Shown: positions 61,849 through 64,000 of the stretch, one piece after another
How positions within the stretch are numbered: position 1 is the stretch's first letter
Layout: every line of letters begins with the position of its first letter
Source of the DNA: Phycisphaerales bacterium
GTDB lineage: Bacteria; Planctomycetota; Phycisphaerae; Phycisphaerales; SM1A02
Assembly (NCBI GenBank): GCA_009691805.1
Contig: SIAK01000001.1
Span: 114,384-178,383 of the forward strand
Length of the DNA: 64,000 nucleotides
Reading direction: 5' to 3'
Program-made: the position numbers and the translations under genes
The notes under the pieces: model-generated
The model's input: the letters and a program-made list of their open reading frames with translations, nothing else
What the model was told of the DNA's origin: nothing
The model's database searches: none

Positions 61849-62364
61849 ATGTTGAACCGCGCACGCGCCAACGCACATGCGACTGCCCTCGCGCTTTCGA
61901 GCGCCGCACTCCTCTTTTCGATGAGCGGTTGCTATCGCCCTGCGGGAAGTTACTACCCAGGGACTGGTCAGGGCTACACCTATATCTCGACGGAGATGAA
62001 ACCCGTCACGATCACGCTCATTGACACGCGCACCGAGCAGCCTTTTTTCAAACTTGACATTCCGCCAGGCAAACAACTCTCGTTCAATTTTCTCGGCGGC
62101 AAGGGCGATGATCCTGTCACACGACCCGACCGCATGATGTACGCGATTTGGGAATCCGACACGCAGACCGGTCGATTGACGAATCAACTCACCTGTCCAC
62201 CACAAGATTGCGTGCGCATCGATTACACGTTGCGACCTTCCCCCGAGTGGGCGGAAGAACCACCAGAGTACATGCTGCGCATCGATGCACCGAAAGACGC
62301 ACCCGCATGGTGGACCCCTGCAGGCGGACCGCTACCTGGCAAGAACCGACCGCTCTACGAATGA
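61849..62364 (+). CDS. Small lipoprotein, unrecognised
   Basis: 171 residues. Signal with lipobox ALLFSMSGC near residue 27. The mature part has YISTEMKPVTITLIDTRTEQPFFKLDIPPGKQLSFNFL, a beta-type segment, and two cysteines in TCPPQDCVRIDY. No family recognised. It is divergent from ispF and followed by the tandem-repeat and IS remnant region. Confidence 0.75.
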   Translation: MLNRARANAHATALALSSAALLFSMSGCYRPAGSYYPGTGQGYTYISTEMKPVTITLIDTRTEQPFFKLDIPPGKQLSFNFLGGKGDDPVTRPDRMMYAIWESDTQTGRLTNQLTCPPQDCVRIDYTLRPSPEWAEEPPEYMLRIDAPKDAPAWWTPAGGPLPGKNRPLYE

Positions 62365-62372
62365 TTTGAAAC

Positions 62373-62588
62373 GCGCGCGTAGTTGAGCTCTCGCGCGGAA
62401 TCTGCCGCGCAGCGCGGACAAATTCCGTCGCTCGCTTTCGACTCAACCATCGCGAGTGAATCGCGAACGGTTGAATTCATACGCGCGTAGTTGAGCGCTC
62501 GCGCGAAATTTGCCGCGCAGCGCGGACAAATTCCGTCGCTCGCTTTCGACTCAACCGTCGCGAGTGAATCGCGAACGGGTGAATTCGC
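62373..62588. repeat. 108-bp tandem direct duplication
   Basis: Two near-identical units, 62373-62480 and 62481-62588, beginning GCGCGTAGTTGAG and ending TGAATTC, with only a few differences. Each unit contains inverted-repeat material (TCAACC.TCGCGA ... TCGCGAACGG.TGA) and could fold. No gene is visible in 62365-62667. Confidence 0.9.
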
Positions 62589-62667: not shown

Positions 62668-63130
62668 AGCGAGAACGGCATCGCACGACGAAGCGCCCGT
62701 GGTGTGAACGATGTCTGGTGCATGGACTTCGTGCGCGAGATTTTGGTGAGCATGTTGAAGACTCGCGGCGTGCCCAAGCACATCCGGAGTGACAACGGTC
62801 CCGAATGCATTGCGAGGACGATGCGCAGCTTTCTGAAGCTTGCAGGCATCGACGCGCTGTACATCGAACCAGGTTGCCCTTTGGCAGAATGGAATCGCGG
62901 AGAGTTTCAACGGTCGCTTCCGCGACGAACTGCTGAACGCAGAAATTTTCACGAACCTCAATGATGCGAAGGCTCTCGGCGCGTATTGGCGCAATGCATA
63001 CAACCACAAACGGCCACACAGCTCGCTCGCGTATCTTCCCCCAGCGCGCTTTGCGGCGGCATGTGCTGCTGCGAAGCTCGGGGCTCCGCCCATTCACTCC
63101 GCAGCAGCACACGTGAGATCATGTAACTGA
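62668..63130 (+). pseudogene. Decayed IS3-family transposase (OrfB/integrase core)
   Basis: Remains of a DDE integrase core. Frame one reads VNDVWCMDFVREILVSML and continues to TRGVPKHIRSDNGPE and YIEPG. Then one extra base in the CCCTTTGG stretch near 62880 shifts the reading to WQNGIAESFNGRFRDELLNA and YNHKRPHSSLAYLPPARF in another frame. Between the first Asp (MDF) and second Asp (SDNG) only ~20 residues remain where the family has about 60, so there is also an internal deletion. The start of OrfB and all of OrfA are missing. Inactive. Confidence 0.9.
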
Positions 63131-63307: not shown

Positions 63308-63826
63308 TTAGCGACCGGCTCTAGGCGATTCCTTACCACAGCCCGCGGTCTCGCGGAACAACTCCACGGTTGTGTAGAGGCGCGGTTCCATAATGTCACA
63401 CCGCTTATCAAGTTCATCGAGCAGTTTGGGGGCGCCAATGGCAGCGAGTTCGTTCGCAAGCTTAAAAACTTCCGCCGCCTCGGGCAGCGTGTTGACATCT
63501 GGCTTGAGTCGCCGAACCGCAATCAGTAGGAGCAGTTCTAGAATCCACGCGTCAAGCTTCGCATCTGCTGGGGTAGGACCCGACGCGATGAACTTCTCAG
63601 TTTTTGCTTGCTCTTGTGGGTGCAAGTCATGATGTTCGGCCCAGAGAATCGCCGCAAGCCAGAAGTCGTACATCCGTCTGAACGGAGCCTCGTCAGAGGG
63701 GCGACGCGGACCTGCAGGTTGAAACGAAACCCACTGCTCCTGTGCCTTTTCCTTCACGGACTTTGGTAAACGAAGATCATGCTGACGAGCTGTGAGGAAC
63801 GAAACATCCATTGCGACTCCTGTCAT
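63308..63826 (-). CDS. Unrecognised 172-residue protein, second gene of an operon entering from the right
   Basis: ATG 63826 overlaps the stop of the upstream partial CDS (ATGA), so this start is favoured over the TTG at 63841. The protein is helical, with EAPFRRMYDFWLAAILWAEH, KTEKFIASGPTPADAKLDAWILELLLLIAVR and ANELAAIGAPKLLDELDKR, ending in a Lys/Arg tail. No catalytic motif or signal peptide is visible. I could not place the family. Accessory position next to an IS remnant fits a mobile or defence island, which is inference. Confidence 0.78.
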   Translation of the reverse strand: MTGVAMDVSFLTARQHDLRLPKSVKEKAQEQWVSFQPAGPRRPSDEAPFRRMYDFWLAAILWAEHHDLHPQEQAKTEKFIASGPTPADAKLDAWILELLLLIAVRRLKPDVNTLPEAAEVFKLANELAAIGAPKLLDELDKRCDIMEPRLYTTVELFRETAGCGKESPRAGR

Positions 63827-64000
63827 TGGTTGGCTAGACAAAGGTCACCTGCGGTCACGTCGCCTACGCGCTCACAGATGCGGCAAAAGTTCGCAGGGCC
63901 GCACTTGCAAACAGAAACCTGATTGGACTGCGCACGCTGAGGATCGGCAGTTACTACGTCCTTGCCGACGTGGGACTGAGCTGTGAGTGTGTAGGTTACG
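63823..64000 (-). CDS. C-terminus of an unrecognised Cys-rich protein (5' end outside window)
   Basis: Open minus-strand frame entering from the right edge (codons from base 63999) and ending at TGA 63823-63825; not in the ORF track because it has no start inside the window. The 58 residues begin VTYTLTAQSHVGKDVV and contain VCKCGPANFCRICERVGD and a final LCLANQ. The CxC...CxxC spacing resembles a small zinc site. The ATGA overlap with the next gene and protein-like composition support it as real. Function unknown. Confidence 0.7.
   Translation of the reverse strand, partial: VTYTLTAQSHVGKDVVTADPQRAQSNQVSVCKCGPANFCRICERVGDVTAGDLCLANQ

Follow-up and report, generated by a model that had tools for sequence, protein, structure and literature searches.

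Two minus-strand genes at the right-hand end of the window (the whole 64,000-nucleotide stretch of DNA analysed here) are, with a probability of about 0.9, the 3′ end of pbeC and a complete pbeD, which close a pbeABCD antiviral operon that is cut by the end of the contig. The operon is identified by homology and gene order, and its role in defence is well supported; in this genome it is a putative operon, deduced from its last two genes only, which implies neither completeness nor activity. The sequence-only reading of the window had placed both proteins in unknown families, as the best candidate for an undescribed accessory or defence system. The families are in fact described: the edge protein is assigned to PbeC, a CxC ABC-ATPase, and the helical protein beside it to PbeD, which is related to TIGR04062.

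Two proteins at the end of the contig

The minus-strand frame at 63823–64000 comprises the last 58 codons and the stop of pbeC, and the remainder of the gene lies past the contig end. It had been picked out from the letters as an unlisted coding sequence, and it is indeed open up to the edge and ends in a four-cysteine motif. Its 58-residue product (P0002, from 63823–63999) terminates in VCKCGPANFCRICERVGDVTAGDLCLANQ, the C-terminal letters before the stop being SVCKCGPANFCRICERVGDVTAGDLCLANQ, and carries the motif CKC-x5-CRIC-x-R. The general form of this motif, CxC-x5-CxxC-x-R, which was tested for the clade of PbeC proteins with a Cys4 tail, is thus present in P0002. In an alignment of CKCGPANFCRICER with the PbeC C-termini of three relatives (loci L009, L010 and L011), all four cysteines and the arginine are invariant. 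A profile of four PbeC tails matches P0002 with an E value of 1.6e-5, compared with 0.17 for the best decoy (∼11,000 shuffles and the ORFs of the window); a profile of all PbeC C-termini misses it, as expected since the tail-less proteins dilute that profile. The PbeC proteins whose tails match the 58 residues in the contig themselves have a CIC hook as well as the motifs of an ATPase. The suggestion of a likely zinc site stands in so far as the Cys4 motif is conserved, although the motif belongs to a C-terminal tail peculiar to one clade and does not form a stand-alone domain. The tail is distinct from the zinc hook at the apex of PbeC.

The adjoining gene, at 63308–63826 on the minus strand, encodes a PbeD homologue (P0001) of 167 residues if translation starts at ATG 63811 or of 172 residues from ATG 63826. 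The two genes had been described as coupled by ATGA; the overlap exists, with the TGA of pbeC (63825–63823) running into ATG 63826–63824, but the second ATG appears more likely to be the real start. We prefer 63811 because a Shine–Dalgarno-like AGGAG, read directly from the minus strand at 63817–63821, lies 5 nt upstream of it and because it fits the N-termini of the homologues. With this start the spacing between pbeC and pbeD is 11 nt, and it is 8 nt in the relative at L009.

Profile matches show that both frames are real genes. With four homologous PbeD proteins as the profile, P0001 is matched with an E value of 3e-14 (best decoy 0.07, again among ∼11,000 shuffles and the window ORFs), and a ten-member PbeD profile that includes archaeal and Rhizobium members matches it with an E value of 8e-12. 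The identity of P0001 to each of five homologues is 23–27%. A profile of classic, tail-less PbeD proteins recovers the PbeDs of the tailed clade at E values of 1e-9 to 1e-6, and P0001 is not among the matches listed for it. TIGR04062 matches eight of the 11 members of the PbeD family alignment at E ≤ 1; P0001 has no match to this model, and its curated cut-off is not reached. The link between P0001 and the classic PbeD proteins is therefore a two-step one.

Neither P0001 nor P0002 has a match at cut-off in Pfam, NCBIfam, PADLOC or PHROGs, and searches of the PDB by sequence and by profile gave no credible match. The AlphaFold model of P0001 alone (pLDDT of 48, all helices) was unusable, and the fold search had no match below an E value of 0.8. 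A search of plasmids with P0001 was empty, as were the searches of phages and of E. coli and an exact-edge search of viral contigs. Two candidate relatives were rejected: a contig match (L004) that proved to be a TetR gene with 20 residues in common by chance, and a weak match in G221 (L008/L012; E = 0.002) that lies within an unrelated protein of 641 amino acids.

Gene order in the relatives

Relatives of P0001 were sought in 392 genomes of the phylum, and the search was repeated with a profile. Distant relatives were found in three genomes of the same phylum (G231, G336 and G459, at loci L009, L010 and L011), and the gene just upstream of the relative in each encodes a DndD-like ATPase that ends in CxC-x5-CxxC-x-R. 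Two further loci have the same pbeC–pbeD arrangement, one on a Sphingomonadaceae plasmid (L018) and one on an IMG/VR contig (L025). The PADLOC test of the relatives' ATPases covered two of them: at L009 the gene upstream of pbeD is PbeC (1e-51) and the helicase gene further upstream is PbeA (2e-184), and at L011 the ATPase is PbeC (5e-49). In all five relatives the two genes close the order pbeA–pbeB–pbeC–pbeD, with PbeA (a PLD/HKD nuclease and SF2 helicase) and PbeB encoded upstream; the full set consists of the PLD nuclease–helicase PbeA, a PbeB of 72–80 amino acids, a PbeC with the CIC apex motif and PbeD. Here, too, a small PbeD-type protein is encoded directly 3′ of pbeC, as at L009, L010, L011, L018 and L025. 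From the profile matches, the gene order of the relatives and the PADLOC names, we conclude that the edge fragment is the C-terminus of PbeC and that the helical protein is PbeD. The proposed check for known defence genes around the homologues gave a positive result, the five relatives lying within pbeABCD operons with ssp genes adjacent.

That a small helical protein and a zinc protein unrelated to Pbe have been matched by chance is very improbable. The identity is low, at 23–27%, and both proteins lack library matches; against this, the matches of the two proteins fall on one and the same pair of neighbouring genes, in an unchanged order, at five loci, the profile score of each exceeds those of all decoys and the gene spacing is similarly short.

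Insertion site and missing genes

DNA synteny with three genomes of the same genus (G001–G003) stops at about 62365, the end of a conserved lipoprotein-like gene (61849–62364, plus strand) that is the last gene common to these genomes and forms the left edge of the island. In G002 and G003 murD follows this gene directly, and it is found nearby in G004 and G008, which represent two other genera of the family; in G001 a gene for a patatin-like phospholipase follows instead. Here the lipoprotein–murD synteny of the same-genus relatives is interrupted, and its place is taken by a repeat, a dead IS and the pbe genes. The spot after the lipoprotein gene (62365; L039–L041) therefore varies in the genus, being occupied by murD in two genomes, by the patatin-like gene in one and by the pbe island here.

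The tandem repeat that had been reported beside the operon is present at 62374–62586 (TRF; period 108 bp, two copies, 95% match). By blastn it resembles repeats in the intergenic DNA of the same-genus genome G003 (L039), so that it looks like a dispersed repeat of the genus and not like a part of the island. The dead IS was also recognized correctly: pieces of an rve/rve_3 integrase core lie in two frames at about 62704–63127 on the plus strand, with Pfam matches to PF00665 (E = 2.2e-7) and PF13683 (E = 4.5e-21) in ORFs that overlap but are read in different frames. Support for a defence operon at a variable and IS-littered position comes from the homologues, which sit in pbeABCD beside ssp genes, and from the same-genus relatives, which have murD at this point. 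The GC content of the edge, 56.1%, is within the range of the window (mean 59.2%, standard deviation 2.0), so that nothing in the composition suggests a chimeric join.

The last base of the window, 64000, is also the last base of the contig (C2 of G000, 178,383 bp). The earlier remark that most of the operon lies beyond the window is therefore correct, and the proposed extension to the right is precluded by the end of the contig. A search of the assembled contigs of this genome found none of pbeA, the rest of pbeC, SspD and murD, in an assembly that is rated as ∼95% complete. As murD is missing too, pbeA, the rest of pbeC and SspD could share a single assembly gap past the edge, and we infer that pbeABC and ssp genes lie in this missing part. 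A decayed remnant, in which pbeD and the 3′ end of pbeC persist alone beside a dead IS and there is no functional system, is in our estimate unlikely. It would account for the adjacent IS remnant and for the absence of pbeA, pbeC and SspD elsewhere in a ∼95% complete assembly, and it has a parallel in the relative G336, in which pbeC is broken by an in-frame stop or a frameshift. However, neither frame here is interrupted and the conserved residues are retained in both, the contig simply stops, and the essential murD that is expected nearby is missing as well, which points to a gap rather than to decay. In G336 itself the pbeC reading frame (L010, 5776–7936) is split in two, and this copy of pbe may thus be inactive.

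A Cys4-tailed branch linked to ssp genes

The C-terminal Cys4 tail is present in all five PbeC proteins of one clade, which is monophyletic with a support of 100/100, and in none of 12 others; the motif CxC-x5-CxxC-x-R recurs in the PbeC proteins of L018 and L025. The classic PbeC proteins of archaea, Lactiplantibacillus, Rhizobium, Ruegeria, Pontibrevibacter and Pseudanabaena have no tail. All five tailed loci (L009, L010, L011, L018 and L025) have sspB, sspC and sspD adjoining pbe, and four of the five also have sspA; the association between tail and ssp covers n = 5 loci, two of which come from one bacterial family. PADLOC scored only SspB and SspD of L009, and the other ssp genes were named by annotation, sequence similarity or gene order. 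At L018 the ssp and pbe genes form one co-directional run, and the same is true at L025.

It is unlikely that the module in this genome is partnered by a methyltransferase for base modification or by a Dnd system, and not by Ssp. Loci with tail-less PbeC do have such partners, Dnd genes in Ruegeria and Pontibrevibacter and nearby methyltransferase genes in Haloprofundus, Halococcus and Halobaculum (some have neither), and SspD was not found in the assembly. The fragment, however, has the Cys4 tail, and each of the five tail-bearing loci lies beside ssp genes. On a Rhizobium indigoferae plasmid (L024, 8025–13017), a tail-less pbeBCD-A arrangement stands by a PAPS-reductase gene that is SspD-like by annotation and by a large ATP-binding gene whose position makes it a candidate for an SspC-like gene; the Ssp pairing may for this reason have arisen more than once.

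The Ssp-linked, zinc-tailed PbeABCD sub-branch looks like a new variant, perhaps an undescribed one. No description of the Ssp–Pbe pairing was found in the literature searched, which left subscription journals mostly outside its scope, and novelty is unproven. We give an even chance to the broader proposal that this is a distinct, undescribed subtype of phosphorothioate (PT) defence with a very divergent member here, in which PbeABCD would work with SspABCD instead of DndCDEA and the zinc tail would adapt PbeC to single-stranded PT or to the Ssp machinery.

Other genes accompany pbe at some loci. At L009 (8383–10331) a DUF262-like gene (PADLOC NsnA, 3.5e-33) and a SIR2 gene (ThsA-like, 8e-29) directly follow pbeD, and they are possible back-up effectors of the Ssp–Pbe island. 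A gene for a protein of 750–880 amino acids with a sigma-factor-like HTH stretch adjoins pbe at L011 (7958–10204) and L025 (12574–15207), and a gene annotated as 'sigma factor-like HTH' precedes pbeA in Ruegeria, Pontibrevibacter and Lactiplantibacillus (L044, L045 and L049).

Possible mechanism and significance

By analogy with the published PbeABCD, the most likely mechanism is one in which incoming DNA would be scanned by a clamp made up of the ABC-ATPase PbeC, with its coiled coil and zinc hook, and the small partner protein PbeD. PbeA, in which an HKD/PLD nuclease is joined to an SF2 helicase, would act on DNA without the self mark and block viral replication, and PbeB may be a small cofactor or regulator. 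The self mark in the tailed branch would most likely be single-stranded phosphorothioate made by SspABCD. The Cys4 tail of PbeC probably binds zinc and is likely to touch either DNA or a partner protein specific to Ssp.

In a survey by Xiong et al., 320 of 553 pbeAC loci were left without a partner modification system (PMC6459918). A PbeABCD branch beside SspABCD would supply a partner for part of these 320 loci. It also allows a direct test of whether a single effector module recognizes two DNA marks, double-stranded Dnd PT and single-stranded Ssp PT, that resemble each other chemically but differ in structure, and the clade-specific zinc tail is an obvious candidate for the adaptor.

Relation to known systems

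Aravind's group describes PbeABCD as the 'CxC ABC-ATPase/DndE' system (PMC10853773); in their account, PbeA is the HKD nuclease–SF2 helicase, PbeB a small regulator, PbeC the CxC zinc-hook ABC-ATPase and PbeD its DndE-like partner ('DndE cognate'). Homology of PbeD to DndE was not confirmed in our comparison, the PbeD profile showing no similarity to the DndE of Ruegeria (hhalign Prob 0.06). TIGR04062 (dnd_assoc_4, 'DNA phosphorothioation-associated protein 4') names the proteins at the PbeD position on the Rhizobium and Ruegeria plasmids, whereas none of the four homologous PbeDs tested comes near its cut-off of 74.25 bits (best score 19.3).

Phosphorothioation by SspABCD works with the effectors SspE or SspFGH (PMC8092258). 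The relatives of the edge operon resemble this system in having SspB, SspC, SspD and mostly SspA next to pbeABCD, but their effector module is PbeABCD and not SspE or SspFGH; no ssp genes were seen in the window itself. An origin from SspFGH was rejected, as nothing beyond a Walker A motif and an FtsK-like C-terminal end is seen in SspF, SspG and SspH.

PbeABCD protects an archaeon against the virus SNJ1; each of the four genes contributes to this protection, which PT-modified virus escapes (PMC6459918). Haloterrigena jeotgali is the only organism for which PT-dependent antiviral activity of PbeABCD has been published (Xiong et al. 2019, PMC6459918). The edge operon shares with PbeABCD the order pbeC–pbeD and a PbeD homologue, its PbeC tail is homologous to the PbeC of the relatives, and the full set is present in the relatives. 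It differs in that the last two genes alone are seen here, in its Cys4 tail, which the PbeC proteins of archaea, Lactiplantibacillus, Rhizobium, Rhodobacterales and cyanobacteria do not have, and in that its relatives are paired with SspABCD rather than with DndCDEA.
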